Below are positions 9,055 to 33,125 of a stretch of DNA of 42,108 bases, piece by piece. Within the stretch, counting starts at the first letter, position 1. Each line of letters starts with the position of its first letter. A program made the translations under genes and the position numbers. The notes under the pieces are model-generated. The model was not told the DNA's origin. It worked only from the letters and a program-made list of their open reading frames with translations, and made no database searches. Origin of the DNA: Oscillospiraceae bacterium (GTDB lineage Bacteria; Bacillota; Clostridia; Oscillospirales; Oscillospiraceae). Where the stretch lies: NCBI GenBank assembly GCA_009787995.1, contig WQSH01000011.1:1-42108 (forward strand), in the 5' to 3' direction.

Positions 9055-9080
9055 AAAAACAGCGTTTTTGATTGTTTTTT
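9054..9080. terminator. Weak bidirectional terminator between convergent genes
   Basis: AAAAAACA and TGTTTTTT form an 8-bp A/T-rich stem exactly between the stop codon of the metal operon and the stop codon of the converging ABC gene. A T-run lies at the 3' side on both strands. The stem is weak. Confidence 0.35.
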
Positions 9081-10720
9081 CATATAATCGAATCCTTAAC
9101 CTCTCCATACGCAACCTCCAACACCCTGTCCGCATAATCGAGGCCATCTCTTCGGTGCGTCACGATGAAACAAAAATCATAGTCGCCGTTCCTGCGGATG
9201 AACTCGTGAAATGCCCCCTCGGACTCCTTATCATAGTTTGAAGTCGGCTCGTCCAGTATAAGAATCTTTGACTTGCGATGCAATGCCCGCAGAAGTGCGA
9301 TTTTCTGCCGTTCGCCTCCCGAAAGCTTTGCGCCGTCGTTCCCCACCTGAGTCTCATATTGATTCTCCCAGCCCTCTATTGCCTCTGTGCAGAACTTCAG
9401 CAGGTTATCTTCAGCAAACTCCGCCCCTAATTTTTCGTCGAGCGCTATATTCTCTCTGACGCTCCCCTTGAATAAATGCACAGCTTGGTACACAACGCTG
9501 AACTTCCGGCGGTAATCTTCGATATTGTAGTGCTCGACGGAAGCCCCATCCATCAGAATGCACCCACCGGTCGGCTCTTGCAGCCTCAGCAGCAAGTTGA
9601 TAATCGTTGACTTTCCGCTACCATTGTCCCCGATAATTGCAACCTTCTCACCGCGTTTGACATGAAAGTTCACATTCTTGAGCACATCACGCCCCTCATA
9701 AGAGACGCTTACGTCCCTAAACTCAATGGTCGATACGTCCTCCGCAAATGGCAGAGTTGAAACATAGTTTTCTTCTTCAAGCTCATAGAATCGTTTCAGC
9801 CCCTCTGCGCTTGGGGCAATCTGGTTTAAGATTATTCTAAGTGACATAATGATATTTATTGGAGAGAGCACATAATTTGCGAACGAAACAAATGCAACCA
9901 GGCCACCAAAGGTGAGCTGGTCCCCTATTATAAAAAATGCGCCTAGTATATACACTCCTTGCATCCACGCATATTCCCAGCTGTAAACGAATAAGTTTTC
10001 TTTTGCCATGTTCAGAGCAAGCTTCTTGCCGGATTTGTTGATTGCCTGAACATGGTCTGCATATTCCCCCGCAACTTTCCCTTCTAAATTCCAAAGCTTA
10101 ATATCTATAACTCCGGACAATATGCTTGAAAACCACGAGTTATAGTCTTTATTGTCGTCCATCAGCTGCTCGCTGCTTTTCTTAACGCGTTTCCGCATTA
10201 CTTGGTTTATCCACAGTTTTATCGGCACAATTACAACGACAAAAATTGACAGCCTCCAGTCAAGTATAATTAACCCAACTAATGCGCCTAAGCACCTGAA
10301 AACGGTAACAAAAATCGAAATGAAGCTTGTGTTCGCAATACTCATGATATTTGTGATATCATAAAGTGCATCACCGACAGTTTTATAGAATCCGTGTTCC
10401 CTGAAATGGTGCGGTTTGAGCTTCAAACCATGTTCGAATGCTTCGGTTTTCAGTTTTTTGCTCAAATCGTTAGAAATACTGATTTCCAGCGTGCGCTGCA
10501 AATATTCAATGAGCTGCGCAGCTAGGTGGAGCACTATCAGCAGCGCAACCAGGGTCGCTACCACTCTTATCTCACCCATGAGCAACCCATCGTCAACCAT
10601 GCTCCGACTGACAAATGGCGATATGGCAAACACTCCCGAGAGAGCGACAGCTAATGCCATCATAACCGCCATCTGCGAGCGGTACGGTTTCAGCATCTTC
10701 AAAGCACTCCGAAACGTCAT
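9080..10720 (-). CDS. ABC exporter, fused permease-ATPase
   Basis: A 546-residue half-transporter with an N-terminal six-helix exporter domain (residues ~1-310) and a C-terminal ATPase: Walker A GDNGSGKST, signature LSGGE, Walker B ILILDEPTSN, and a T-H-R-R switch region. No C39 peptidase domain is present, so leader cleavage must occur elsewhere. ATG at 10720 has AAAGGA ahead and is preferred over the TTG two codons earlier. It is the last gene of the minus-strand radical SAM operon, 123 bases after its neighbour. It probably acts as a homodimer. Confidence 0.88.
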   Translation of the reverse strand: MTFRSALKMLKPYRSQMAVMMALAVALSGVFAISPFVSRSMVDDGLLMGEIRVVATLVALLIVLHLAAQLIEYLQRTLEISISNDLSKKLKTEAFEHGLKLKPHHFREHGFYKTVGDALYDITNIMSIANTSFISIFVTVFRCLGALVGLIILDWRLSIFVVVIVPIKLWINQVMRKRVKKSSEQLMDDNKDYNSWFSSILSGVIDIKLWNLEGKVAGEYADHVQAINKSGKKLALNMAKENLFVYSWEYAWMQGVYILGAFFIIGDQLTFGGLVAFVSFANYVLSPINIIMSLRIILNQIAPSAEGLKRFYELEEENYVSTLPFAEDVSTIEFRDVSVSYEGRDVLKNVNFHVKRGEKVAIIGDNGSGKSTIINLLLRLQEPTGGCILMDGASVEHYNIEDYRRKFSVVYQAVHLFKGSVRENIALDEKLGAEFAEDNLLKFCTEAIEGWENQYETQVGNDGAKLSGGERQKIALLRALHRKSKILILDEPTSNYDKESEGAFHEFIRRNGDYDFCFIVTHRRDGLDYADRVLEVAYGEVKDSII

Positions 10721-10843
10721 AAGCAATCCTTTCTTTCATAGCGGCCAGGTCATTTTGTGAGCATACAATTTTTCCGCATAGGCCTGATTCTATGAACACA
10801 TTAAATGCTAGCGCTCGCAATTATAGGTACAAAGGAATGCGAT

Positions 10844-12637
10844 TCATTCAGCATCGTAGCTATAAGTGCTCCGAGCGTAAAGGCGGCAATACTCTCCTTT
10901 CGCATCCATTAGCTCTTGATGGGTTCCGACTTCCGCCACTGCACCTTTATTTAGCACTACTATGCTGTCTGCATTGATGGCATTTTCTAAGTTGTGAGTG
11001 GCTATGAGTATTGTGTGATCATTGCGCAAAGTATCTATAGTTGCCATTACCTGCGCCTCTGTTTCCTTGTCTAAGGCACTGGTAGGTTCGTCAAAAACAA
11101 TTATTGGAGCACCTTTAACAAGCGCCCGGGCTATAGCGATACGCTGTTTTTGTCCCCCTGAAATCAAATCGCCCTTTTCTCCACAGAGAGTGTCGTATCC
11201 ACTGCTCAATGCTTGAATGAAATCGTGTGCAACTGCCCGCCTTGCAGCAGCGATAATCTGGTCGTCTCTCAGTTCCTCGGGGCTGCCGAGCGTGATGTTT
11301 TCTTTTACCGACAAATTAAACAGATTGCAGGACTGGTCGACATAGGAAAAATTTTTTCGCCAGCTTTGTATCGGAACTTGGCTGCAGAGCGTGCTTCCTA
11401 TACGCAGCACCAAATCCTCACGCTGATATAATCCGACGATGACCCTCAACAGCGTGGACTTGCCACTGCCGGATTCGCCAACTATGGCGATTTTTTTGTT
11501 CTCCTCAATCACTAAATTTATGTCTTTTAGAGCGCCCTCGCCCGAACCTTTATAATTAAAGCTTAAGTTTTCCAAACACAGTGTGTAGTTATCGGACGAC
11601 GCGATTCCGCATGAATTATTTGAGCTTGCACAGCTTCCGTGGTGACTGTAGTTATCTAAAACAGCAAAAACCCTCTTTGCCCCTACGATTGAAGGCTGCA
11701 AGTCGGCATATAGCTTACCGATTTTGCCGATAGCTGATATCAAGGCAGCACACATACCTGCCGACACCATGAGCTGATTAAACGCAAGGCTCTGCACTGC
11801 AACCAGCCAGCCGCCAAAACCAAACACCACAATCAAGCTAAGCCAGCCCTGCAATGTGGTGAACACTCCTTGCCACATACTGATAAAGGCCTGTCTGAAA
11901 TCCAGCATTTTCATAAGCTTATTGTGTCGCTCAAAATTTGAATGCACTTTTTCTTGCGCATTGTACGCCCTGACTGACATTGCGCCACTGAACATATTGC
12001 CAATAACTTTCAGACTTTCTCCATTTTCCAACAGCTTCCCTTCGCTTATTTTAGCTAAGGGGGCTGCAAAGCGGTGCTGAGCGGCAAGCGAAACTAGCCC
12101 GACGACAAATGCCGCAGCCCCCAAACGCCAGTCAATTGCGAAAATGACAATTGGAGAAGCTATAATAGTGAAAGCGGAGTTAAGAAATGCGGACAAAGAC
12201 CCCTGAAAGACTCCATTTGCAGCATCTGCATCAGTATTGATAGCAGCTATACTTTCTCCGCTGTGTGAAGTGTCTTCGATACCTTTCCTCATGAAGGCGC
12301 GAAAGAGGCTTCGCTTCATATCCAGCATGGCTTTTTCGGTAACAATTATGTTCACATATATGCATATGCCCAGCACAACAAAAAAAGTGAGAGCCATTGT
12401 AGCAAATGCGAGTATAGCATCGTTTATCATAGATGCGTTTGCATTCATAATCGCAGCCATTATGTTGCCGGTAAAAAGAGCCAAAATGAATTGTATGGCA
12501 AAGCCCTGTCCGATATATACAAACTGGCTGATTGCATATGGCAGTGCATATGGCTTCATGAATCTGAACATCCTAAGTATATATTGTCTATCGCTTTTCA
12601 CTACATTGCGTGAGTTTAAATTTTTTGCGCCATCCAC
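10844..12637 (-). CDS. ABC exporter, fused permease-ATPase
   Basis: A 597-residue half-transporter. The membrane domain spans residues ~25-320. The ATPase has Walker A GESGSGKST, signature ISGGQKQR with a serine-less variant lead, Walker B IIVFDEPTSALD and switch ATHN. It starts at a GTG (12637) with GGAGG five to ten bases ahead, inside the last 22 bases of the upstream ABC gene. This overlap suggests co-translation and a heterodimer with that neighbour. There is no peptidase domain. Confidence 0.88.
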   Translation of the reverse strand: MDGAKNLNSRNVVKSDRQYILRMFRFMKPYALPYAISQFVYIGQGFAIQFILALFTGNIMAAIMNANASMINDAILAFATMALTFFVVLGICIYVNIIVTEKAMLDMKRSLFRAFMRKGIEDTSHSGESIAAINTDADAANGVFQGSLSAFLNSAFTIIASPIVIFAIDWRLGAAAFVVGLVSLAAQHRFAAPLAKISEGKLLENGESLKVIGNMFSGAMSVRAYNAQEKVHSNFERHNKLMKMLDFRQAFISMWQGVFTTLQGWLSLIVVFGFGGWLVAVQSLAFNQLMVSAGMCAALISAIGKIGKLYADLQPSIVGAKRVFAVLDNYSHHGSCASSNNSCGIASSDNYTLCLENLSFNYKGSGEGALKDINLVIEENKKIAIVGESGSGKSTLLRVIVGLYQREDLVLRIGSTLCSQVPIQSWRKNFSYVDQSCNLFNLSVKENITLGSPEELRDDQIIAAARRAVAHDFIQALSSGYDTLCGEKGDLISGGQKQRIAIARALVKGAPIIVFDEPTSALDKETEAQVMATIDTLRNDHTILIATHNLENAINADSIVVLNKGAVAEVGTHQELMDAKGEYCRLYARSTYSYDAE

Positions 12638-14433
12638 TGTTCCCCCTCCGTTCTGAGCCGTTGCTCAGCTTCGTGCATGCTGCGATAGACAGCATTTTCA
12701 GCCAGCAGCTTCTCATGTGTTCCGACTCCTGCCACTTTCCCCTCATCCATAACGACAATTACATCGCACGCAACGATGGATTTAATCCTATGCGTTACCA
12801 TTGCAACTGTTTTTCCTTTTGTTGCATCGATAAACCTGGCAAGAACTTCTGTTTCTGTAATCGGATCGAGAGCGCTTGTCGCCTCGTCAAAAAGAAAAAT
12901 TGGCGAACCCTTGTAAAAGGCTCTTGCCATTGCAATCCGCTGGCGCTGCCCACCTGAGATATTCTCTGAAAACTCTGTCAGTGTACTATCCCATTTATCC
13001 GGCAAGTTGCTTATAAAGTCCAGCACGCCCACATCAGAGCAGGCTTTCTCAAACCTATCCATATCGGGAGGCTCGCAGCCAAGCGTTATATTGCTCATAA
13101 TGGATTCGGGAAAAAGAAAGCTATCTTGCGGAACATAAGCAAACATGCTGCGTAGTTTGTCTTTTGCGATTTTGGAAATATCCTTGCCGCCAATAGCAAT
13201 CCTGCCGGAGCTAGGCTCATGGATGCCCAGCAAAAGCTTTAGCAGAGTGGACTTGCCACTCCCACTGCTTCCCACAATGGCTACTCGCTGGCCTTGCAGG
13301 ATATCAAAACTGACGTCATCTATGACTGTGGCGGAATCAGTGCTGTCTCCGTACGAAAAAGCCACATTGCTCAATGATATATCCACCCTGCCCAGCTCAT
13401 CGGCACGCTCGCCTGCGTGCAAATCTTCCAACGCTTGTGCGGAATTGTCATTTAAGCGTTTAGCTCCGGCCGCAGATGAAGCAATCTGCCCTATCCTATT
13501 TGAGATGCCGGTTATGCCCTCCACAGCTATCATTATTGTGGCAGAAAACGAAATGAATTCGGCTAAAGTCATGGCTCCATTTACAACGGCAAAGCCCATG
13601 ACAGCAGTTATAACAGCTAATGGCCCAAATGTGGATACAAAAGCAATTCCTGCCATAGGCAACATCGCTTTTGCCTGCTTTTTTGTGACAACATAATATT
13701 CGTCGTATGCCATCATGTAGCGTTTTTCTACTGCCTCCTCCATACTATAGGCCATTATAGCGGGTATGTTTTGCAAAGCATCCTTTACAACGGCATTGAA
13801 CTCGGCAGATTTTTTCGACTGGATTTCGGTCAGCTTGTTAATCGGCGCAGAGCACAAAACCATTACCCCCATTAATACGACGGCAGATCCTAGCAATATG
13901 CCTGTATGCATCGGGCTTATCATGAGAAGGAACACAAGTGCGGCTGCGAAGGATGCTGCATCAGAAAATAGGCCCATAGCATCAGATGATATCAGTGCCT
14001 GAGCCTTTGGGATGTCGTTTACGTAAATAGACATGCCCTCTCCGCTGCCTACATCTTCAACGGCTTTCAGCGGGGTGCGCAAAAAATAGTTGACAAAATA
14101 TTTCCGCAAGCCATACCCTCCATTTGCCGAAAAGCGGCTCATGTGCAGAATTGTCATCGCAGCACTAATGGCTCTGATAATCATAATGCCGGAAACAAGT
14201 CCCAATAAGCGAACCAAAGCCTCAACATCTCCATACAGAGCGACCTGACCCATTTCGCCTTGGGCGCGAACCGTCAATATGGTCATTACGGCTGCAAGTA
14301 TTGATGCCAAAATAAAAAAGAGCATAAACCGGCGATACTTTAGGTCGGCTTTATGTAAGGTCATAAAAAATGTCTTCAACCCATCAATCTCCTCCGCACT
14401 GGCTATTGCAGGCCGCAGCTTTAAGGGCTTCAT
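12616..14433 (-). CDS. ABC exporter, fused permease-ATPase
   Basis: A 605-residue half-transporter, first of three in the operon. It has a six-helix membrane domain after a ~30-residue cytoplasmic N-terminus. The ATPase has Walker A GSSGSGKST, signature ISGGQRQR, Walker B IFLFDEATSALD and switch THRI. AAAAGG precedes the ATG at 14433. It follows the precursor-like peptide and its hairpin by 20-60 bases, which fits a role in exporting the modified peptide or giving self-protection. It probably pairs with the overlapping downstream ABC protein. Confidence 0.88.
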   Translation of the reverse strand: MKPLKLRPAIASAEEIDGLKTFFMTLHKADLKYRRFMLFFILASILAAVMTILTVRAQGEMGQVALYGDVEALVRLLGLVSGIMIIRAISAAMTILHMSRFSANGGYGLRKYFVNYFLRTPLKAVEDVGSGEGMSIYVNDIPKAQALISSDAMGLFSDAASFAAALVFLLMISPMHTGILLGSAVVLMGVMVLCSAPINKLTEIQSKKSAEFNAVVKDALQNIPAIMAYSMEEAVEKRYMMAYDEYYVVTKKQAKAMLPMAGIAFVSTFGPLAVITAVMGFAVVNGAMTLAEFISFSATIMIAVEGITGISNRIGQIASSAAGAKRLNDNSAQALEDLHAGERADELGRVDISLSNVAFSYGDSTDSATVIDDVSFDILQGQRVAIVGSSGSGKSTLLKLLLGIHEPSSGRIAIGGKDISKIAKDKLRSMFAYVPQDSFLFPESIMSNITLGCEPPDMDRFEKACSDVGVLDFISNLPDKWDSTLTEFSENISGGQRQRIAMARAFYKGSPIFLFDEATSALDPITETEVLARFIDATKGKTVAMVTHRIKSIVACDVIVVMDEGKVAGVGTHEKLLAENAVYRSMHEAEQRLRTEGEQWMAQKI

Positions 14434-14452
14434 CGCATAGCGACCTTTTATC

Positions 14453-14485
14453 TTTCCGTACCCGACTCAGCGTCGGGTACGGAAA
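14453..14485 (-). promoter_or_regulatory. Strong hairpin between peptide ORF and first ABC gene
   Basis: A perfect 14-bp stem (TTTCCGTACCCGAC with GTCGGGTACGGAAA) around a 5-base loop sits 9 bases after the peptide stop codon and 19 bases before the ABC start. There is no T-run. In precursor-peptide operons a hairpin here typically raises the precursor:transporter ratio by partial termination or by protecting the upstream mRNA end. Confidence 0.75.
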
Positions 14486-14494
14486 CGTGTGCGA

Positions 14495-14584
14495 TTACCA
14501 AAAAAGTATGCAGATAGTCGGGAGTTTGATTACGCAACCCATTGGAGTGATTGCATCGTCAGCAGGCTTTACTAGAATCTTCAT
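14495..14584 (-). CDS. 29-residue candidate precursor peptide, nested in the radical SAM frame
   Basis: ATG at 14584 has an exceptionally strong ribosome binding site, AAGGAGGAG (14592-14600), seven bases ahead. The product begins MKILVKPADDAITPMG and ends CVIKLPTICILFW, with two cysteines eight residues apart (positions 17 and 25). A charged N-terminal half resembling a leader is followed by a hydrophobic, Cys-containing core, the usual plan of ribosomally made, modified peptides. It is in the same frame as the radical SAM ORF, with no stop between them, so it could be made alone or as that protein's C-terminus. The position between maturase and ABC exporters supports a precursor role. Alternative: a fortuitous internal start in a decayed gene. 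Confidence 0.6.
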   Translation of the reverse strand: MKILVKPADDAITPMGCVIKLPTICILFW

Positions 14585-15418
14585 ATTTTTGCTCCTCCTT
14601 AAATTATTTGACTCAATGGAGATTACATTAAACACATTCATTACCTCGCCTAAACATGTGTGATTTTCGTTATCCACATTGATTCTTATAGTTATAGGTA
14701 TTATGTGCTTTGCCAAACTCACGTTCTGAATTATCCTTTCAAAAGTGCCACTTCCATCAACCAGTGGGCGCCTACTGTTATGGAGTTCTTTGCCGCCATC
14801 AATTGTTACTTGAACGTTGCTAACAGCGCAATCCATAAGTTTATTCGCATTTTCCTGGGTCAATAAATACCCATTTGTAACAACTATCGATGTGTATTTC
14901 ACATTATTTGCCTTGCATATTTCAATCACATGTCTTGAAATTGTTTCGAGTTGCGGCACGGCTAGCAGAGGTTCTCCACCAAACCAAGTTATGTGCAGCT
15001 CATCCAAATGGCTGGCTCTTGCTTCAATAAAATTGACAAGCCTTTTCATCGTGTCCTCAGACATTTCCTCATTGCGATCAATGCCGTTTTCAAAACAGTA
15101 TGCACACGCAAAATTGCAAGCCATCGTAGGCGCAATAGTCAAGGACATAACCGAATTATTATACCTGCTTGCATGTAAACTGGCTTTGATGTGGTTGATT
15201 TCATCAAAATCATCGTCAATCAGAAATCCGCAGTACATTAATTGTTCAACAAATTCAGTGTCGCCAATGCAGATTCCATTCTCCTCAAATTTTTTAAAAT
15301 CGGCATACTTGTCAGGCTCAAGTGCGGCCATCGCACCTGTCCTAGAGTTATAGATTACGACCTGACTATTGTGCGATGCTTCCTCTACGTGGGCGAAGTT
15401 ATATCTTGAAACTTTCAC
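14495..15418 (-). CDS. Radical SAM peptide maturase lacking its SPASM domain
   Basis: The 307-residue frame starts at GTG (15418) with AAGGAG seven bases ahead. Residues ~1-90 are the N-terminal region seen in clostridial peptide maturases. The [4Fe-4S] cluster motif is C101-x3-C105-x2-C108 (CNFACAYC), followed by the SAM-binding WFGGEPLL. The radical SAM core reaches IRINVDNEN near residue 250. Family members normally continue another 120-200 residues through a SPASM domain with auxiliary clusters. Here only about 29 unrelated residues follow before the ribosome binding site of the nested peptide. The enzyme is therefore either 3'-truncated by deletion or a minimal form. It leads the minus-strand operon with three ABC exporters. 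Confidence 0.8.
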   Translation of the reverse strand: MKVSRYNFAHVEEASHNSQVVIYNSRTGAMAALEPDKYADFKKFEENGICIGDTEFVEQLMYCGFLIDDDFDEINHIKASLHASRYNNSVMSLTIAPTMACNFACAYCFENGIDRNEEMSEDTMKRLVNFIEARASHLDELHITWFGGEPLLAVPQLETISRHVIEICKANNVKYTSIVVTNGYLLTQENANKLMDCAVSNVQVTIDGGKELHNSRRPLVDGSGTFERIIQNVSLAKHIIPITIRINVDNENHTCLGEVMNVFNVISIESNNLRRSKNMKILVKPADDAITPMGCVIKLPTICILFW

Positions 15419-15461
15419 AAGAATGCTCCTTGCTTTTTGAAATCATGTGCTCGGCGAGTCC

Positions 15462-15489
15462 ATATTATCATGCTCTTCGGTTGATGTAT
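15462..15489 (-). promoter_or_regulatory. Activator-dependent promoter of the radical SAM operon
   Basis: Reading the minus strand, TAATAT (plus 15462-15467) is a good -10, with no recognisable -35. Exactly 22 bases upstream begins the ACTGCG edge of the long palindrome, the same distance as at the secreted peptide gene. A -10 without a -35 beside an operator is the pattern of a promoter needing an activator. Confidence 0.55.
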
Positions 15490-15492
15490 ACT

Positions 15493-15525
15493 GCGATTCT
15501 TGAGAAATATTTTCTCAAGAATCGC
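15493..15525. promoter_or_regulatory. 33-bp perfect palindrome, putative regulator operator
   Basis: GCGATTCTTGAGAAA, TAT and its exact complement form a 15+3+15 palindrome in the divergent region between the radical SAM operon and the regulator gene. Its central 19 bases (TTGAGAAATATTTTCTCAA) are identical to those of the palindrome at 17827-17867. Neither palindrome is followed by a T-run in a terminator arrangement for any gene, so DNA-level recognition is more likely than termination. Confidence 0.75.
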
Positions 15526-15612
15526 ATGGCTGAAAAGCAGCTCTTGCGCAGCCCTGCCAAGTGTGGAGAAAAGCAGCGCAGGAAAAATTACAAAAACAGC
15601 GCAAATTATTCA

Positions 15613-15641
15613 TTGACATGCAGAGTATTATGCGATAAAAT
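15613..15641 (+). promoter_or_regulatory. Sigma-A promoter of the regulator gene
   Basis: TTGACA (15613-15618), a 17-base spacer and TAAAAT (15636-15641), about 29 bases before the start codon. This is a near-consensus promoter separate from the palindrome, suggesting that the regulator is made constitutively. Confidence 0.8.
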
Positions 15642-15669
15642 TCGTCACCAAAAAAAGGGAGATGATTGC

Positions 15670-17580
15670 ATGGCGCGCATATACACCGGAAAACTTATAT
15701 CCGAGCTTCGGCAGCGCAAGCAGTGGCAGCAAGAAAAGCTTCGGGACGAGCTTTCATGCTATGCCCCCGAGCTCTACCGCATCGAAAAAGGCGAACAGCT
15801 GCCAAGGACGGATTCCTTAAAGGTGGTAATGGATGCATTAAGCGCACCAATGGACGAGCTTATTTGTCCGCACTTGGACGGACAACCCCTGGATGCCTAC
15901 GTTTTGCGCTACAGGCTGATTCAGGCTTTGGACAGCGGAGACCTTCATATGGCGGAGGAGCTGTTTGGTGAACTTTCCAACCTTGAGGGTTTTGGCGGCG
16001 CAATAAACAGGCAGTTCTTTTTGAGCCAGCAGGCAAGATTGATGGAACTGCAAGAAAAACAGGCAGACGATATCATCCCCCTGGTGGCTGAGGCGCTGGA
16101 GCAGACCTTTGATGGATTTGATGGGAGCAGCCCCGGGAGCAAGGTGCTGATTTTTGAGGAGCCAGAGCTATTCCACACCCTATCCAGGCTCTATGCCCAA
16201 AAAGGGCGCCTGGCCGAAGCGATAAAGATGCTTGAGGACACCTACAGCGGGCTGCGTCGCCTGCCCATAGGAGAGCGGGAACGAGATAGGCGGGTGCTGC
16301 CAATGCTGCACTCCCTGGCCGACTTCCATATGCAAAACGGCGACTACGCCGCAGCATTGGAAGCTTGCGAGACAGGGCTCGATGTTTCCGCCATGCGCTG
16401 CTTGGGGAAGGACACCCCCGAGCTTCTGCTGCTAAAAATGGAAGTCTTGTTGAAGCTAGGCCGCACGGAGCAGTGCGGGCGGCTACTCATAATGGCATTC
16501 GCAGGCTTCATGCTGCTGGGCGAAAAAGAGAAGGCCTTGGACGTGCTGGCCAAGACCCAATCGGAACATGAAGCTACGTACGAACTGCGCGGCATGGAGA
16601 AGCTGGACATAGCTCCGAGCCAAAGGCTACCCTATGCGCACGGCGGGGTAACTGCCGGAAAAACCGTGGGGGACATGATTCGCATCATGAGGGAAGAGAC
16701 CGGGCTGAGCCTGAAAGAGCTCAGCCAAGGCATCTGCAGCACGGCAAACCTGGGGAAAATTGAGAAAAACGAAGTCCAAGGGCATATGCACTACCTAGAG
16801 CCGATTTTGGAGCGATTGGGCAGGGACCCGCTACTGTACTGCAATTTCTTCCTAAATAAAGAGGACTTCGAAGCCAGGGAGCTGCGCGACGCCATCCGGT
16901 TGCTGGTGAGGCAGTATAAGTATGACAGTGCGATGGAGCTGCTTGAGAAGCTGAAGTCGTACAAGGCGTACAAATCCCGGGCTAACTTGCAATTTGTAAA
17001 AATGATTGAAGCGTTTGTTTTTGCCGACAGCTGCAAGGAGCCTATTCCGGAAATCGAAGCCAAGCTCCTCGAGGCTCTGCATATAACTTGTCCAGATTTT
17101 GATGAGGACAAAATCAAGCGATACCCGCTGACCTTGGATGAGGCCGGAATCATAAATAATCTTGCAGGGCATTATGTAGATATGGAAGAAAACGACCGGG
17201 CTGCCAAAATTTATTCGGCGCTCATCGATAACCTAAACAGCCGCTACGTGGACGAGTCTGAAAAGGCACGTCTGTATGCGGCTGTCATGTTTAATTACTC
17301 TTCTTGCCTGGGCAAATCAAACCGACGCAGGGAGGCTCTGGACGTAATCGAGACGGCTGCGGCATTTGAGCGCAACAGGGGGCGATTGCTTGAGCTTCCA
17401 TCATTTGCAGGCAACAAAGCATACAACTTGATGATGCTGGGCGACATGGAAGTAAGCTTGTCCTATTTCGCCTTGGCTTACTACGGGTTTGTTATGTTTG
17501 ATAAATATGAAAAAAACTCTTCGATTCAGATAACTCAAAGTATAGTGAAAAGAAACTTTGGGATTGACATCAGCCATTGA
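15670..17580 (+). CDS. RRNPP/PlcR-like regulator with two HTH-TPR modules
   Basis: A 636-residue cytoplasmic regulator. Residues ~5-60 are an XRE-type HTH (LISELRQRKQW ... LYRIEKGEQLP ... LKVVMDAL), followed by helical TPR-like repeats. A second HTH appears near residues 330-385 (VGDMIRIMREETGLSL ... LGKIEKNEVQG ... LEPILERLG), followed by another TPR set to the C-terminus. The two halves align with each other, so the gene looks like an internal duplication of a ~300-residue PlcR/Rgg-type protein. Such proteins bind imported signalling peptides through the TPRs. GGGAG lies seven bases before ATG 15670; the longer upstream frame is not coding. The gene converges on the secreted peptide gene, overlapping it by 11 bases. 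Confidence 0.75.
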   Translation: MARIYTGKLISELRQRKQWQQEKLRDELSCYAPELYRIEKGEQLPRTDSLKVVMDALSAPMDELICPHLDGQPLDAYVLRYRLIQALDSGDLHMAEELFGELSNLEGFGGAINRQFFLSQQARLMELQEKQADDIIPLVAEALEQTFDGFDGSSPGSKVLIFEEPELFHTLSRLYAQKGRLAEAIKMLEDTYSGLRRLPIGERERDRRVLPMLHSLADFHMQNGDYAAALEACETGLDVSAMRCLGKDTPELLLLKMEVLLKLGRTEQCGRLLIMAFAGFMLLGEKEKALDVLAKTQSEHEATYELRGMEKLDIAPSQRLPYAHGGVTAGKTVGDMIRIMREETGLSLKELSQGICSTANLGKIEKNEVQGHMHYLEPILERLGRDPLLYCNFFLNKEDFEARELRDAIRLLVRQYKYDSAMELLEKLKSYKAYKSRANLQFVKMIEAFVFADSCKEPIPEIEAKLLEALHITCPDFDEDKIKRYPLTLDEAGIINNLAGHYVDMEENDRAAKIYSALIDNLNSRYVDESEKARLYAAVMFNYSSCLGKSNRRREALDVIETAAAFERNRGRLLELPSFAGNKAYNLMMLGDMEVSLSYFALAYYGFVMFDKYEKNSSIQITQSIVKRNFGIDISH

Positions 17581-17731
17581 TGCCCTTGCGGGGATACACA
17601 TCCAAAGGGCTCACCAAACATGGTTGGCTGATAAAATCAAGTCCATAACCCTGCGCTGCGGGGGCTGGCGCTGCCGCAACAACTACGGCCAAGAGGATAC
17701 TCAATGCGATGCCTCTGATTGCTTTTTTCAT
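17570..17731 (-). CDS. 53-residue secreted peptide, candidate signalling propeptide
   Basis: A small gene with AAAGGGG 12-13 bases ahead of its ATG. The product has a textbook signal peptide: MKKAIRG, then a hydrophobic run ALSILLAVVVAAAP, then APAA, a signal peptidase AxA-type site. About 27 residues remain (QGYGLDFISQPC ... SPLDVYPRKGING) with a single cysteine. It converges with the TPR regulator, the classic place for a cognate peptide, and has the palindromic operator upstream. I infer that the exported peptide or a cut fragment is re-imported to bind the regulator. No oligopeptide importer is in the window. Confidence 0.7.
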   Translation of the reverse strand: MKKAIRGIALSILLAVVVAAAPAPAAQGYGLDFISQPCLVSPLDVYPRKGING

Positions 17732-17799
17732 AGTAATATTACCCCTTTCATTTGTTCCTGCGCTCCTTAGTACCGAGCGGCACAACTGTTGTGGCTCAC

Positions 17800-17867
17800 A
17801 GTATACGTGAATTCCCAAACAAAAACCACTGCGAATTTTGAGAAATATTTTCTCAAAATTCGCAGTG
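17800..17867 (-). promoter_or_regulatory. 41-bp palindromic operator and -10 of the secreted peptide gene
   Basis: CACTGCGAATTTTGAGAAA, TAT and its exact complement (17827-17867) form a 19+3+19 perfect palindrome. On the minus strand the -10 TATACT (plus 17800-17805) begins 22 bases beyond the ACTGCG edge, exactly as at the radical SAM operon. There is no good -35. The transcription start would lie ~60 bases before the peptide start codon. Confidence 0.75.
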
Positions 17868-17924
17868 CTAGAAAGCAGCTCAGGCATCGCCTTACGTATA
17901 TGCAAGTTGTCTACACCCATCCCT

Positions 17925-18060
17925 CGTCCTAGGCGAGCTCTGTTCGAGCCGCAGCGAGTTAGCGAGCCGGGGGTTCCAAGGGGGGACACCCCCTTTGCGT
18001 GTCTTTTGGTTACTTTTCTGCACAAGCAGAAAAGTGACCCGCCGGAGGCCGCTCCCCAAC
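17925..18060. repeat. GC-rich hairpin repeat-like block
   Basis: No gene is visible between the peptide promoter and the flavodoxin gene. The block holds GGGGG/CCCCC pairings near 17970-17992 and a 14-bp stem GGTTACTTTTCTGC / GCAGAAAAGTGACC (18008-18021 with 18026-18039). Its composition, ending in a GTGACCCGCCGGAGGCC run, resembles dispersed intergenic repeats seen in many bacterial genomes. Bases 18060-18171 show nothing further. Confidence 0.4.
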
Positions 18061-27922: not shown

Positions 27923-30376
27923 TCAGAACGTGTGCTCCGCCCGGGATATGATGTCGTTTTGCATCTCAGTGCTCATCTCCACGAAATATGCCGAGTACCC
28001 GGCAATGCGCACGACTAGGTTGTGGTGCTTGATAGGGTCTTGCTGCGCTTCGCGCAACGTTTCCGAAGAGACGACGTTGTATTGGCACTCCATGCCGCCT
28101 TTTTCAAAGTACGTCTTTGTCATATCGCGCACCTTCGTGACCCCATCGTCGCGCGAGAAAACAGACGGATGTATGCGCAGGTTAACCGCCATGCCGTCCA
28201 TAAAGCGGGAATGGTCAAAACACACCGATGACAGGAAGACAGATGTCGGCCCATTTACGTCCCTTGACTGTACCGGGCTAATCGCGTCCGCTATCGGCTC
28301 GCCCGTCTTGCGCCCATCCGGCGTCGCCCATGTGAGTTCGCCCTGCGGCACATGATCTGCCGCACCATACATACCGCCCTTGTATACCGAACACCGCTGG
28401 TTGGAAAATTCGGTGCAAAGCTGGTAGTATAAGTCAACGACCCACTTTAGCTCCATATCGGCGTAAGGCTCTGCGTTGCCATAGTGCGGAACCTCGGATA
28501 TGATTTGCTGGCGCAGGGCTTCTTTGCCTTCCCAGTTTGCAAGCACCGCATCCAGCAGTTCTTTTCCAGTGACGAGCTTTTTGTCAAATACCATATATTT
28601 GATTGCGGTCAGGCTGTCCCCAACGGTCGCCAGCCCGGTGGCCGTGCCGCCGTAGGAGTTGTATTTTGCTCCGCCTGCCGAAACGTCCATCCCCTTTTCC
28701 ATGCACCCTTCGGTCGAAATGGAGAGGTTGGGGAATGGGAATAGCCGTGCCTGCTCGTATTCGGCATAGTTGTTGAGCGTGGCCGACCAGGTGAGCATCC
28801 ATCTTGCGAGCTTTTCCATTGCGGCACGGACTTCCTCCATGGAGTTCATCTCATAAAGGTATCCTGAGCGCACATGCTCCGGTGCCTGCTGTCCGTTCAT
28901 CGGGTTGATGCCATTGTTTATCGCCATGACCAGTACGATTGACCAGTATATGCCATTATGGGACATTGCCGTGCCATTAGGCGCCGGGTAATCGTTGCCG
29001 GAGCCGACTATCTCCTGGCAACCGATAAGGCTGTAGTCCCGCGCATCTTCCAGCGAAAATCCAAGCTCTTTCATCAATCCGGGTATTATTACGTCGTCAT
29101 TTTGAAACAGCGGTAGCCCGCCGACAATCCGGGATGTCTCCAGTGCGCAGTTCCATATTTCCTCAGGCGTATTTTTGTTGACGCGCAGCGAAATCGTCGG
29201 CTCGTGCAGCTGCAGCCTAGCCATAGATTCAAGAATCATGTAGGATACGGGGTTTGTTGCGTCTTCGCCGGTTTCCGGTATTTGCCCGCCTATCGTCGTA
29301 TGCTGGCCAACATGGCCTATGCCGACGGTCTGGGCCATTTTTCCGAAGCCTCCCTCATAGAACGTGTTGAGCTTGAGGAAAAAAGCATCCACAAGTTCTT
29401 GCGCCTCGTCTATAGTGATTGTGCCTTCCTCCAACTCCTTTTTCAGGTACGGCCATGTGTTTTGGTCAAACCGCCCCATTGAAGTCACGCCCGGGCCGTT
29501 GTCAACGATCAGGAAGAGATGGTACAGCAGCACCGTTTGGCATGCCTCCCAGAATGTGCGAGGGGGGTTTTCCGCAATCCATTCAAGGCCTGCGGCCATT
29601 TTTTCAAGCTCCGCTTTCCTCTCAGGGTTCGGGGCTTCCTTCGCCTTTTCCGCCGCAATCCCTGCGTAGCGGCGCGTCAACGTGATGGCTCCATCGCAGG
29701 CGATTGTAGCGGCTTTGTAAAACACGTACTTGCGCATGTCGTCGCCCATTATGCGGCCTTCGCGCTCGTCAAGCCAATCCTGAGCCTGCTTGCGGATAGC
29801 GCCGTAGCCCATTTTAAGGATTTTCTGGAATCCCGGCGTAAGATGCCCCGGCGGCATCAACGCACCGGGACGCCCCGGTATGCCGTAGTCGCTGGCATGG
29901 AGCTTCATAAATTCCTGCGCATTGTCCGGCAGCCACTTGTCTCCCCCGAAACCGCCTCCGCCGGATCGCATCTGCTTGAGCATCAGTTCGCGCAGCTTTT
30001 TTAGCTCCTCCGGCGATATCGCAAGAGAAAGTCCGGCATACAGAGGGTCGTCTCCGGGGCAGTGGTGCAGGCCGTCTTCCTTGATAGGCCATTCGTTTTC
30101 AATATTCGCCATTATCCACATCATGCCGCTGCTTCCGCAGAAATGTTTGTTGCCTAGGTTTGCGACAAAGTAGTCGTCGTCTTCAATTCTCAGCGGCATG
30201 TTCGATATGACGTGGAGCGACTGCAGGGGTTTTTGAATCAGCGGGGTAACTCCATCATACTTTTCTGCGGCCTCAAGCTTCAGGCGCGTTTTTTCAGAGT
30301 CGGCGACTATGACCCTGTCGCGGATTTTCTCCCGCATGTTCCAAATCCGCTGTGTATAGGGTTTGAATTTATACAT
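27923..30376 (-). CDS. Glycyl radical enzyme of the pyruvate formate-lyase superfamily
   Basis: An 817-residue oxygen-sensitive enzyme. The catalytic cysteine lies in SLIGCQEIVGSG near residue 440-450, and the radical-bearing glycine in VVRIAGYSAYFVEM near residue 790. The cysteine is followed by Q-E, i.e. a Gly-Cys-x-Glu site as in dehydratases, decarboxylases and C-S/C-N lyases, not the Cys-Cys of pyruvate formate-lyase. The subfamily (diol dehydratase, arylacetate decarboxylase, isethionate lyase and so on) cannot be assigned confidently. No activating radical SAM enzyme is adjacent, which is unusual. It lies directly downstream of a LytTR two-component pair and has its own promoter. Confidence 0.9.
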   Translation of the reverse strand: MYKFKPYTQRIWNMREKIRDRVIVADSEKTRLKLEAAEKYDGVTPLIQKPLQSLHVISNMPLRIEDDDYFVANLGNKHFCGSSGMMWIMANIENEWPIKEDGLHHCPGDDPLYAGLSLAISPEELKKLRELMLKQMRSGGGGFGGDKWLPDNAQEFMKLHASDYGIPGRPGALMPPGHLTPGFQKILKMGYGAIRKQAQDWLDEREGRIMGDDMRKYVFYKAATIACDGAITLTRRYAGIAAEKAKEAPNPERKAELEKMAAGLEWIAENPPRTFWEACQTVLLYHLFLIVDNGPGVTSMGRFDQNTWPYLKKELEEGTITIDEAQELVDAFFLKLNTFYEGGFGKMAQTVGIGHVGQHTTIGGQIPETGEDATNPVSYMILESMARLQLHEPTISLRVNKNTPEEIWNCALETSRIVGGLPLFQNDDVIIPGLMKELGFSLEDARDYSLIGCQEIVGSGNDYPAPNGTAMSHNGIYWSIVLVMAINNGINPMNGQQAPEHVRSGYLYEMNSMEEVRAAMEKLARWMLTWSATLNNYAEYEQARLFPFPNLSISTEGCMEKGMDVSAGGAKYNSYGGTATGLATVGDSLTAIKYMVFDKKLVTGKELLDAVLANWEGKEALRQQIISEVPHYGNAEPYADMELKWVVDLYYQLCTEFSNQRCSVYKGGMYGAADHVPQGELTWATPDGRKTGEPIADAISPVQSRDVNGPTSVFLSSVCFDHSRFMDGMAVNLRIHPSVFSRDDGVTKVRDMTKTYFEKGGMECQYNVVSSETLREAQQDPIKHHNLVVRIAGYSAYFVEMSTEMQNDIISRAEHTF

Positions 30377-30570: not shown

Positions 30571-31362
30571 TTATATCCGTGCATACATGGCATTAAGCCC
30601 CTGCCGAACTTGCTCAACATAAGTGCCGCCCATGTCCAGCTCCTCGCCATTGTTGAGCCATAGCTTGCGCTTTTCTGAATTAAAATTAAATATTTTTTCT
30701 ACATTAACTATGTACGCCCTGTGGCACCGCACAAACCGCATATCCAATAATGGGTGGATTTTATTCAGCTCATGCCGGGCTACATACTTATTTGATGTGC
30801 AGTGTACGGTTACATGATGCGCTTTGCCGGGGGTGACCTCAATATAGATTATATCCGAATAATCAAGAAGAATAGTGCTGCCTTTGGAAAATAGCCGGGC
30901 GTCTTTGGCAGCGGCATCCTCCGCTAGCTTCAGGCTTAGCTTATCGGCCTTACGCCCTATGCGCTCTGAATACCTTTGGTACGCAGTGAGAACACAGTTG
31001 CAAATACGCTTTTCAAGGTCATGGGCATCCTTGGTTATATAGTCCATCGCTTCTATCACATATTCAAATGACAGCTGCTTTGACTGGCTATCGCTGGTAA
31101 CGATCACAATAAATGCCCTCGGGTCATATCTTCTGATTTTTTCGGCAAGCCGGAAGCCATTTATTTCGCATTGGAGGTCTAAATCCACAAAATACAATCC
31201 AAATACCTCGCTATCTCGTATGTACTCCAATAGCTTATCCGGATTTGTGGTTGCGCAGGCAATGGCGGCGTTTAGATTTTCACTCTTGATAAAGTTATCT
31301 ATATATTTTTTGATGCGGCTTAGAAATTCTTCGTTATCTTCGCATATAAATACAGATAGCAA
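30571..31362 (-). CDS. LytTR response regulator, AgrA/LytR-like
   Basis: A 263-residue response regulator. Residues ~1-125 are a receiver domain with the acidic pair in FICEDNEE, the phosphoacceptor aspartate in LYFVDLDLQ and the VIVTSDS strand. Residues ~160-260 form a LytTR DNA-binding domain (YIEVTPGKAHHVTVHC ... MRFVRCHRAYIVNVEKI). It starts 17 bases after the kinase stop codon. The likely target is the glycyl radical enzyme promoter immediately downstream. Confidence 0.9.
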   Translation of the reverse strand: MLSVFICEDNEEFLSRIKKYIDNFIKSENLNAAIACATTNPDKLLEYIRDSEVFGLYFVDLDLQCEINGFRLAEKIRRYDPRAFIVIVTSDSQSKQLSFEYVIEAMDYITKDAHDLEKRICNCVLTAYQRYSERIGRKADKLSLKLAEDAAAKDARLFSKGSTILLDYSDIIYIEVTPGKAHHVTVHCTSNKYVARHELNKIHPLLDMRFVRCHRAYIVNVEKIFNFNSEKRKLWLNNGEELDMGGTYVEQVRQGLNAMYARI

Positions 31363-31379
31363 AATAGATTCCTCCGTTT

Positions 31380-33047
31380 TTACGGCAATATAGTTAAGAG
31401 CTGAACAAAGCGCCCTCTTTTGATTTGGGGGAGCAGCGATAAATTGGGATTATTTTGAGCTATCTGATTTGCCGTATATAACCCAAGCCCTCGTCCGTCC
31501 TCCTTGGTAGTATACCCTTTTTCTGATAATTTGTCCAAATCGGGTGGACTTAGAAAATTGTTTTCAACCACTATCAATGTTGCGGGGCTTTTGCTTAATA
31601 TGCCAAAATGCAATTCAGGTTTTTCGACAGCTTTGCAGCCTTCAATCGCATTATCAAGAAGAATTCCGACGATGCGGCATACATCAAGCAGATGCTCGAC
31701 GGGGATAGGCTCTAACTCGGCTGAGATATCAATGACTACCTTTATGCCTGCACGCTGCGCCGAGGGCAGCTTGTGGCAAAGTATCCCTTTTAGTTCAGGG
31801 GTGTTTACCTTGCCCAGTATATCTAAGCCTTCGTTAATATTCTTCACAGATTTGTAAAACGAGGCCATGTAGTTTTCATAATATTCACGCGCACCATCAA
31901 TATCTCCGTTTTTCAAATACTCATGAAAGCTCAACATGAGATTTTCGTGGTCATGCCGAAATGCCCTTGCTTCTAAAGACAGGCTTTCAAGATTTTCCGT
32001 ATTTTCCCGCAAAGCCATAATCCGGTCCTCTTTTTGGCGCAAGTCGAATTTCATGCTCAGACTATGTCCGATAAATAGCACCATTGCCACCATTAAAATC
32101 AAAATGACAGCCGTGTATAAGACAATCAGCTGCTGTACGGGGGCTTGCAGTATGTACAGCGGCTCATTGGGCAGTCGCCTGGGGGCGATTGCCTCAGCGC
32201 TTGCGGCTTGAGCCGCATCCTGTGCCGGCTCGCCATCCCCGATTCTTGTGATGCGCATGTCCTGCCTTCCGCTTATTGGTTCTCCATCTCTGATTCGGAC
32301 AGGGGGGCGCAAGGTTTGCCTTTCGCCGCTTGTGTCTGTACCATATACTTCAAACTGCAACCTGCGTTCGACAGGGGGCTCTTCCCTGCGCACTTGGGTA
32401 TAACCATTTCGGTCACGGCTTGCGTCACGATTTGTAAAAAGAACATGCTGTGATAAATTTAAGCTGCCAAACGCCACATTCACAAATGCCGCGACGAGAA
32501 ACAGGTAGAGAGCTAACGATCTTTTAATTTGCTCGTCTAATATCAAAAATTTCTTTTTAAGGAACATTCCCGATGTATAGGCAAGGGCAAATGTAATAGT
32601 GGCAAGCACAAAGTAATGGGCAAAAACAGAAACCCACATGCGCGAGTTAAAGTCTTCTCCGGCTATTTGCAAGATAAATTCCATCGCATCTGGGGTCAAA
32701 ATAACTGCGCTTATACTTCCGGACAAGTTGAGTATAATCATCGAAAAAACGGCAAAAAAGGCGCTCAGGGATAAAATTCCGGTTTTTCTGTAAGCTGCAA
32801 ATATAAATATGCCCGCAATTGGAGCGCTATGCGTCAAGAGGGATACTGCGAAGTGGAGCCAGAGGGAAACGGCTTCCGGTTCGGGGAAGAGCACAGTGCT
32901 AAGCTGTGCATTTAAAAACAATACTGCGGTAACAGCAACATAGGTCAATACGACCTCAATTATCCGAAATTTAACCCTCGCCACGCCAAAGAATGCAATC
33001 ACCATCAGGAATGCACTAATAACAAATATGAGGATTGCTAAATTCAT
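31380..33047 (-). CDS. GHKL sensor histidine kinase, AgrC-like
   Basis: A 555-residue membrane kinase. Seven hydrophobic helices occupy residues ~1-360. An extracytoplasmic segment of about 130 residues, rich in Arg, Glu and Pro, lies between helices 6 and 7 and is a likely sensing region. The phosphoacceptor is in ARAFRHDHENLM, the N-box is VGILLDNAIEG and the G-box GRGLGLYTANQIA, i.e. the SpoOB/AgrC ATPase type. ATG 33047 follows AAAGGA and opens directly into helix 1, so the longer frame was rejected. No AgrD-like peptide or AgrB protease is adjacent. Confidence 0.85.
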   Translation of the reverse strand: MNLAILIFVISAFLMVIAFFGVARVKFRIIEVVLTYVAVTAVLFLNAQLSTVLFPEPEAVSLWLHFAVSLLTHSAPIAGIFIFAAYRKTGILSLSAFFAVFSMIILNLSGSISAVILTPDAMEFILQIAGEDFNSRMWVSVFAHYFVLATITFALAYTSGMFLKKKFLILDEQIKRSLALYLFLVAAFVNVAFGSLNLSQHVLFTNRDASRDRNGYTQVRREEPPVERRLQFEVYGTDTSGERQTLRPPVRIRDGEPISGRQDMRITRIGDGEPAQDAAQAASAEAIAPRRLPNEPLYILQAPVQQLIVLYTAVILILMVAMVLFIGHSLSMKFDLRQKEDRIMALRENTENLESLSLEARAFRHDHENLMLSFHEYLKNGDIDGAREYYENYMASFYKSVKNINEGLDILGKVNTPELKGILCHKLPSAQRAGIKVVIDISAELEPIPVEHLLDVCRIVGILLDNAIEGCKAVEKPELHFGILSKSPATLIVVENNFLSPPDLDKLSEKGYTTKEDGRGLGLYTANQIAQNNPNLSLLPQIKRGRFVQLLTILP

Positions 33048-33125
33048 AAAGCGGCCATTCCTTTCGCACTTCTCGTACTTCGCTATCATTATATCAGGCT
33101 TTTGCTTTAAAATTAAACTTTTCAA

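Follow-up and report, generated by a model that had tools for sequence, protein, structure and literature searches.

PlcR, the receptor of the PlcR/PapR system of the Bacillus cereus group, belongs to the RRNPP regulators, joins a helix-turn-helix (HTH) to a tetratricopeptide repeat (TPR) domain, and has the gene of a secreted propeptide next to its own. In streptococci, Rgg/SHP receptor-peptide pairs stand beside operons for radical SAM-modified, ribosomally synthesized and post-translationally modified peptides (RaS-RiPPs), and the Group III Rgg/SHP pairs have convergent, overlapping pheromone genes (PMC13361665). A further point of comparison is the Clo7bot maturase and precursor families (TIGR04334/TIGR04333), although a literature search returned nothing under Clo7bot, TIGR04333, TIGR04334, or TIGR04463. 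Here, we analyzed a stretch of 42,108 nucleotides (the window), which is one complete contig (C11, WQSH01000011.1) of a 2.42-Mb, 163-contig assembly from an Oscillospiraceae bacterium (GCA_009787995.1). The gene content and palindromes of the window suggest that, ahead of a Clo7bot-like radical SAM RiPP operon, it probably carries an RRNPP/PlcR-type cassette for autoinduction by a peptide (quorum sensing), the receptor of which is tandem-duplicated. All elements named in an initial annotation of the locus are present, namely a radical SAM gene, a 29-codon Cys-containing open reading frame (ORF), three ABC exporter proteins, an HTH/TPR regulator, and a convergent secreted peptide of 53 aa, together with two copies of one long palindrome. 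The regulator gene lies on the + strand, divergent from the operon on the − strand, and operator 1, the first palindrome, lies between them. The proposal of a RiPP locus under peptide-signaling control thus stands insofar as a cassette is found beside a radical SAM peptide operon, but the complete novelty of the precursor, an Rgg as the closest relative of the receptor, and a fixed link to the maturase do not.

The regulator (15670–17580, + strand; ATG at 15670 and stop at 17578–17580) is a protein of 636 aa with the domain order HTH-TPR-HTH-TPR, which bears out the unusual architecture proposed earlier while correcting the order, previously given as TPR-HTH. An hhalign comparison of its N- and C-terminal halves shows them to be homologous, with 18% identity across 304 columns (probability 100, E 2.5e-45). 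PlcR is the best solved relative and relates the regulator to a known HTH and TPR receptor, the C-terminal half aligning with it across both domains (E 1.8e-16, profile positions 329–596). The match to Pfam RNPP_C is weak (0.003, below its cut-off). Three chains titled “Transcriptional regulator” (5w4m, 5w4n, and 4yv6), which we take to be Rgg proteins, matched residues 7–101 only, at 0.001–0.002. The locus can be regarded as a clostridial counterpart of the streptococcal Rgg RiPP circuits, as had been suggested, but with PlcR rather than an Rgg as the best among solved relatives of its receptor. As in streptococci, a receptor and its peptide are encoded next to a radical SAM RiPP operon, and the pheromone gene is convergent and overlapping; unlike there, the receptor is PlcR-like and doubled, the propeptide measures about 50 aa and has a signal-like N terminus, and full-length doubled receptors were found here only in metagenome-assembled genomes (MAGs). 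Compared with PlcR/PapR, the window differs in the fusion of two receptor units (PlcR has one), in its 35- and 41-bp operators, in a convergent peptide gene, and in its RiPP cargo. The regulator also lies outside the receptor range of 250–500 aa required by a published RRNPP detector, whose validated members measure 285–473 aa (PMC10075063). The families named in the part of that work available to us, which lists 196 candidate regulated clusters, include no doubled-receptor group, and the portion of RRNPP-related literature that we text-searched makes no mention of tandem-HTH or two-HTH-domain receptors. Because the receptor is too long for the detector, a whole family of signaling systems may have escaped notice, one whose operators and candidate peptides are readable.

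To compare the two units, 16 distinct full-length regulators were aligned, consisting of that of the window, five more from the same genome, and the remainder from a genome collection (one locus, L041, holds two). The other 15 are 31–46% identical to the regulator of the window. A conserved TPR asparagine that holds the peptide backbone has been reported in the receptor family, for example Asn227 of RapF (PMC3601957). In the C-terminal unit, Asn541 and Asn581 (numbered without the first Met) are each present in 16/16 regulators and Asn495 in 14/16. The invariant Asn541 is a candidate for such a conserved TPR asparagine and corresponds to PlcR N201 by manual count on the profile alignment. The N-half position aligned by hhalign to 495 is His in 16/16; that aligned to 541 is Ser or Thr in 15/16 and Asn in the remaining one; and that aligned to 581 is Asn in 7/16. 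Because these asparagines are kept in the C-terminal unit and mostly replaced in the N-terminal one, the C-terminal unit would be the one that senses the peptide, whereas the N-terminal unit would mainly read DNA. Two HTH domains per chain would also explain the long half-sites of the palindromes.

The regulator is narrowly distributed. Six full-length copies are found in the genome of the window, and a search of 59 other relatives was positive in two genomes of the same genus (G006 and G008), with one copy each. The genome collection gave nine loci, all in MAGs and including the contigs of G006 and G008. Of these nine MAGs, the eight other than Pal332 were checked, and all eight carry termite host identifiers listed in PMC7024585. 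By its genus mates, the genome of the window presumably comes from a termite gut as well. A wider host range was considered and rejected, as no genome other than its own matched at E 1e-60 among 393 genomes of the order and 390 of the class. At E 1e-40, 397 other genomes of the phylum gave single-unit matches only, in one genome (G119). These genome sets are samples in which the top three candidates per genome were scored, so that the counts are lower bounds. No relatives were found in viral contigs, and the two plasmid records that matched did so with the C-terminal unit only. Six single-unit homologues of 298–320 aa, which fall within the length range of the RRNPP detector, are present in G005, G008, and G009, and they are 28% identical to the C-terminal half and 19% to the N-terminal half. 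They likely show the starting form of the doubled regulator. By a rule looser than that used for the full-length set, a secreted peptide of about 50 aa is encoded convergently in five of the six; three have a palindrome 208–270 bp past the stop, and downstream of one (L033) an ABC gene and a radical SAM-like gene can be made out by eye. One member of the distant single-unit pair of G119 likewise has a convergent secreted peptide, ending ...NPIDVPDPHPTEH.

The candidate pheromone propeptide is encoded on the − strand (17570–17731) and its gene overlaps the 3′ end of the regulator gene by about 10 bp; the published detector allows a receptor-propeptide spacing of −60 to 400 bp (PMC10075063). Adjacent to the receptor and, at 53 aa, within the 10–100 aa expected of a propeptide, it begins MKKAIRGIALSILLAVVVAA..., a basic and then hydrophobic, signal-like N terminus. 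A candidate for the mature signal lies within its C terminus, ...SPLDVYPRKGING. We applied a fixed rule (opposite strand, 35–80 aa, ribosome site of at least 4 nt, hydrophobic start, and stop at −60 to +200 bp) to the regulators and to 120 control genes. As controls we took ORFs of at least 200 aa from the same loci, excluding any that overlapped a regulator, lay within 900 bp of one, or came within 500 bp of the end of a locus. A convergent secreted-peptide gene was found for 11/16 regulators, which are related by descent, and for 4/120 controls (Fisher 1e-9). If the 53-aa ORF instead encoded a small membrane or secreted effector peptide under the control of an HTH protein, its divergent sequence would be readily understood, and its processing to a signal is only inferred. 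However, the position of the gene is conserved, with the stops of peptide and regulator within 10 bp of each other in 7 of the 11 strict cases, and the same arrangement recurs in the single-unit relatives. The peptides also have a common C-terminal motif: P[LMT][DN], picked after inspection of the peptides, occurs in the last 25 residues of 6/11 propeptides, compared with a mean of 0.44 and a maximum of 4 in shuffles. Moreover, the propeptide of L029 carries NDLPVQHPR twice, and a repeated C-terminal segment has been reported for some large RRNPPA propeptides (PMC9765709). Taken together, an effector appears quite improbable, and the ORF is better read as a pheromone gene.

The two palindromes are candidate operators. 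Operator 1 (15492–15526; arms of 16 nt around 3 nt) lies where the RiPP operon and the regulator gene diverge, and operator 2 (17827–17867; 19 nt around 3 nt) lies upstream of the pheromone gene. Their shared core, TTGAGAAATATTTTCTCAA, occurs at only two sites in the assembly at ≤2 mismatches; within the window, ≤3 mismatches gave four matches (both sites on both strands), compared with 0.05 expected. Both sit inside a 54-nt direct repeat that is 85% alike and has a conserved flank beside each palindrome. This flank, GAGCTGCTTT on the − strand (15527–15543 and 17868–17881), faces away from the operon and the peptide gene. In 10/16 regulators, a palindrome starts 212–296 bp past the regulator stop, just before the peptide gene, whereas any palindrome within 500 bp was found for 12/120 controls (Fisher 7e-6). 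The palindrome of L029 is more distant, at about +536, and in four cases (the window, L030, L043, and L044) a palindrome is found upstream of the regulator. The sequence varies among paralogs, with four copies of one type in L027 and two in L030. The four in L027 (1825–9820) are spread over about 8 kb around the regulator of contig C32 and several secreted protein-like genes, a candidate multigene regulon. An arm-by-arm comparison of twelve operators gave a mean similarity of 0.597, compared with 0.500 for shuffled arms (sd 0.009, maximum 0.529), and by eye the half-site reads roughly CGAGTT and then GnGnAA. The similarity of regulators is weakly correlated with that of their operators for the whole protein (r 0.27, p 0.024), the first HTH (r 0.25, p 0.035), and the second HTH (r 0.26, p 0.051).

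The promoters have a recurrent geometry around these sites. In 17 palindromes hand-picked after inspection, a −10 box (at least 5/6 matches) starts 38–45 bp from the palindrome center on 19/34 sides, compared with 1–6/34 in each of eight 8-bp bins farther out. In the window, the −10 box of the pheromone promoter is TATACT (17800–17805, − strand), 41 bp from the operator center, and that of the RiPP operon is GATAAT (15464–15469, − strand), 39 bp from the center. Both have a poor −35 (2/6), whereas the promoter-like site of the regulator gene is near-consensus (TTGACA-17-TAAAAT, 15613–15641, + strand, 11/12 matches). A −10/−35 scan alone found 4 sites, with 4.1 expected. That the palindromes are transcription terminators or ends of a mobile element seems highly improbable. 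Palindrome 2 does score as terminator-like on the − strand, but it precedes rather than follows the peptide gene, the −10 box stands at a common distance, and palindromes of paralogs differ in sequence yet have a common half-site pattern; a mobile repeat was ruled out by the mere two genomic copies of the core. A separate 32-bp palindrome, GGTYACTTTTYTGCNNNNGCAGAAAAGTRACC (18008–18039), resembles a REP-type element and occurs at 12 genomic places at ≤2 mismatches, three of them on regulator-bearing contigs (C6, C11, and C32).

Several observations weigh against the reading of a peptide-activated cassette controlling a RiPP operon. The fixed rule found no convergent peptide for 5/16 regulators: L015, L042, and L045 lack a good candidate, that of L038 has a weak ribosome site, and that of L027 is in frame at the C terminus with its signal part out of frame. 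Owing to the common ancestry of the 16 regulators, the cassette counts are not independent. The −10 survey omitted three palindromes of L045 and one upstream of L043. Peptide-modifying genes are firmly adjacent in only 6/16 loci, with NCBIfam matches below curated cut-offs, which are therefore likenesses rather than memberships. The maturase of the window lacks its SPASM half, its homology ending at residue 264, shortly before the ribosome site of the precursor. Finally, in L025 and L026 the edge of the palindrome carries a −35 of the sequence TTGACA or TTGACT, so that repression is possible there. A regulator acting as a repressor relieved by its peptide would fit these two loci and the extension of the palindromes to the −35 region, and activation by the peptide is not universal in the receptor family, Rap proteins and PrgX being inhibited by theirs (PMC3601957). 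Nevertheless, the −35 matches at only 2/6 positions at both window promoters, which fits dependence on an activator, and PlcR, the closest solved relative, was named a transcriptional activator by its structure depositors. We therefore regard repression as unlikely; a poor −35 together with a −10 box at about 40 bp fits an activator that would be bound beside RNA polymerase.

The operon on the − strand runs from the radical SAM gene through the 29-aa ORF and a hairpin to three ABC half-transporter genes, the last ending at 9080. The N-terminal half of the maturase (14495–15418, 307 codons) matches TIGR04334, the Clo7bot maturase, at 7.8e-56, and TIGR04463 slightly better at 1.9e-66. Its TIGR04334 score of 189.6 bits, over profile positions 1–264 of 440, is below the cut-off of 600. 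Among 118 other genomes, the sole maturase relative at E 1e-30 is in G038 (locus L050; 39% over 201 residues), an intact protein of 439 aa that scores 448.8 bits, likewise below the cut-off. Four small genes lie directly 3′ of it, beginning MKFVVKP, MKFVVRP, MKYIVEA, and MKYIIKP, and three of their peptides match TIGR04333 weakly (0.00026–0.0083). The precursor-like peptide of the window, MKILVKPADDAITPMGCVIKLPTICILFW (14495–14584, − strand), has an AAGGAGG ribosome site 9 nt ahead of its ATG and had no match to TIGR04333, the Cys-rich precursor family, at E 0.1. It has M1, K2, V5, K6, P7, G16, C17, and C25 in common with the first L050 precursor. Hence, the peptide is not wholly new, contrary to what had been proposed, as its MKxxVKP leader and Gly-Cys pair are common to Clo7bot-like precursors directly after an intact maturase. 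The window thus resembles the Clo7bot families in the N-terminal half of the maturase, the leader, and the maturase-then-precursor order of L050, but differs in lacking the SPASM half, in having two Cys, and in lacking a TIGR04333 match.

The truncation bears on what the operon can make. Homology to the intact relative stops near 14627, and a search of the window with the last 177 residues of that relative, its SPASM part, gave nothing significant (best E 0.25). The frame of the maturase runs open into the 29-aa ORF, both stopping at 14495, and the two frames were fused either by a deletion or by assembly error. Accordingly, although the radical SAM gene is present as annotated, production is doubtful, and the operon may have ceased to yield its final modified peptide, or may not yield it in the usual form. 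It is, by a narrow measure, probable that the cassette works while the RiPP operon decays: a deletion would have removed the C-terminal portion of the maturase and joined what remains of its frame to the precursor gene, leaving a signal-controlled exporter without a modified product. The stop in homology ahead of the ribosome site, the missing SPASM part, and the Cys count of 2, compared with 4 or 5 in the four L050 precursors, all favor decay. Against it, the frame is open through the junction and the CxxxCxxC motif (101/105/108), the ribosome site, and the operator are intact, while an assembly error or a working SPASM-less enzyme would be alternatives. Directly 3′ of the precursor gene is the hairpin (14450–14488, − strand; 17-bp arms with 2 mismatches and no T run by eye), followed by ABC exporter half-transporters 3 (12616–14433), 2 (10844–12637), and 1 (9080–10726), all on the − strand.

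The genes beside the cassette vary from locus to locus. A radical SAM gene adjoins it in 5/16 loci. In the window, it is accompanied by the three ABC genes and in L028 by an ABC gene (by eye), whereas L038 has a YydG-like epimerase (8.7e-54) with ABC. The first copy of L041 has a SPASM-domain radical SAM gene with a PqqD match just below cut-off, preceded by a small Cys-containing ORF; TldD is nearby, as is an ABC gene (by eye). In L044, the radical SAM gene is CcpM/lachnocin-like and is accompanied by ABC, a subtilase, and two small Cys-rich ORFs. A TldD/PmbA pair is present in L025, and L015 has only a subthreshold radical SAM fragment at its contig end. A small ORF of L038 (12401–12529), MDNIITIQDVLETDF..., lies between the palindrome and the epimerase gene and is a candidate precursor peptide. 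With 36 radical SAM matches in the genome of the window (about one per 67 kb), finding such a gene within several kilobases is unremarkable on its own; its distance to an operator is about 75 to 400 bp in the window, L028, L038, and L041. Relatives of the regulator without the maturase or palindromes had been set beforehand as grounds for rejecting the initial annotation. No radical SAM gene is firmly beside 11/15 of the other full-length regulators (L015 and L037 are cut by contig ends), while peptide and palindrome mostly persist; the signaling cassette therefore survives, and the fixed link to the maturase of the window does not. The conserved unit is the signaling cassette, and the RiPP operon is one use of this general cassette. 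Such cassettes point to regulated radical SAM peptide genes (YydG-like epimerase, CcpM/lachnocin-like, SPASM with a PqqD-like tail, and Clo7bot-like) in an under-explored community.

These features suggest how the circuit may operate. The regulator would be expressed from its own near-consensus promoter, and the 53-aa propeptide, encoded by the convergent gene, would be secreted and then processed to a peptide from its C terminus, around SPLDVYPRKGING. An oligopeptide permease may then re-import the peptide, ten PF00496 binding-protein matches being present in the genome, and the peptide would bind the C-terminal TPR unit, where the conserved Asn positions are kept. The regulator would bind both long palindromes, with the two HTH domains of a single chain recognizing one half-site, and would activate both promoters, whose −10 boxes lie about 40 bp from the palindrome centers next to a poor −35. 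The propeptide gene would thereby be turned on in positive feedback, together with the maturase-precursor-exporter operon, although the shortened maturase may leave the modified peptide unmade or unusual in form. We consider it evenly poised whether these proteins constitute a distinct class of peptide receptor with two PlcR-like units per chain, in which the C-terminal unit senses the pheromone and the N-terminal unit is largely retired from sensing but kept for DNA reading. A dimer would have four HTH domains with which to contact a long operator whose half-sites consist of two blocks, and the class would have multiplied in termite-gut Clostridia, as in the six copies here, into parallel signal-operator channels, several of which, here and in other genomes, stand beside different classes of radical SAM peptide genes. 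In most loci, the sequence reveals the operator, the candidate pheromone, and the geometry of the −10 box, so that the way in which tandem receptors read long palindromes is open to direct testing.

Two other features of the contig were observed. A pair of GHKL histidine kinase and LytTR response regulator genes (30571–33125, − strand), which resembles AgrC/AgrA, is a possible second peptide-sensing system. A gene at 27923–30376 on the − strand encodes an 817-aa glycyl radical enzyme of the pyruvate formate lyase type.

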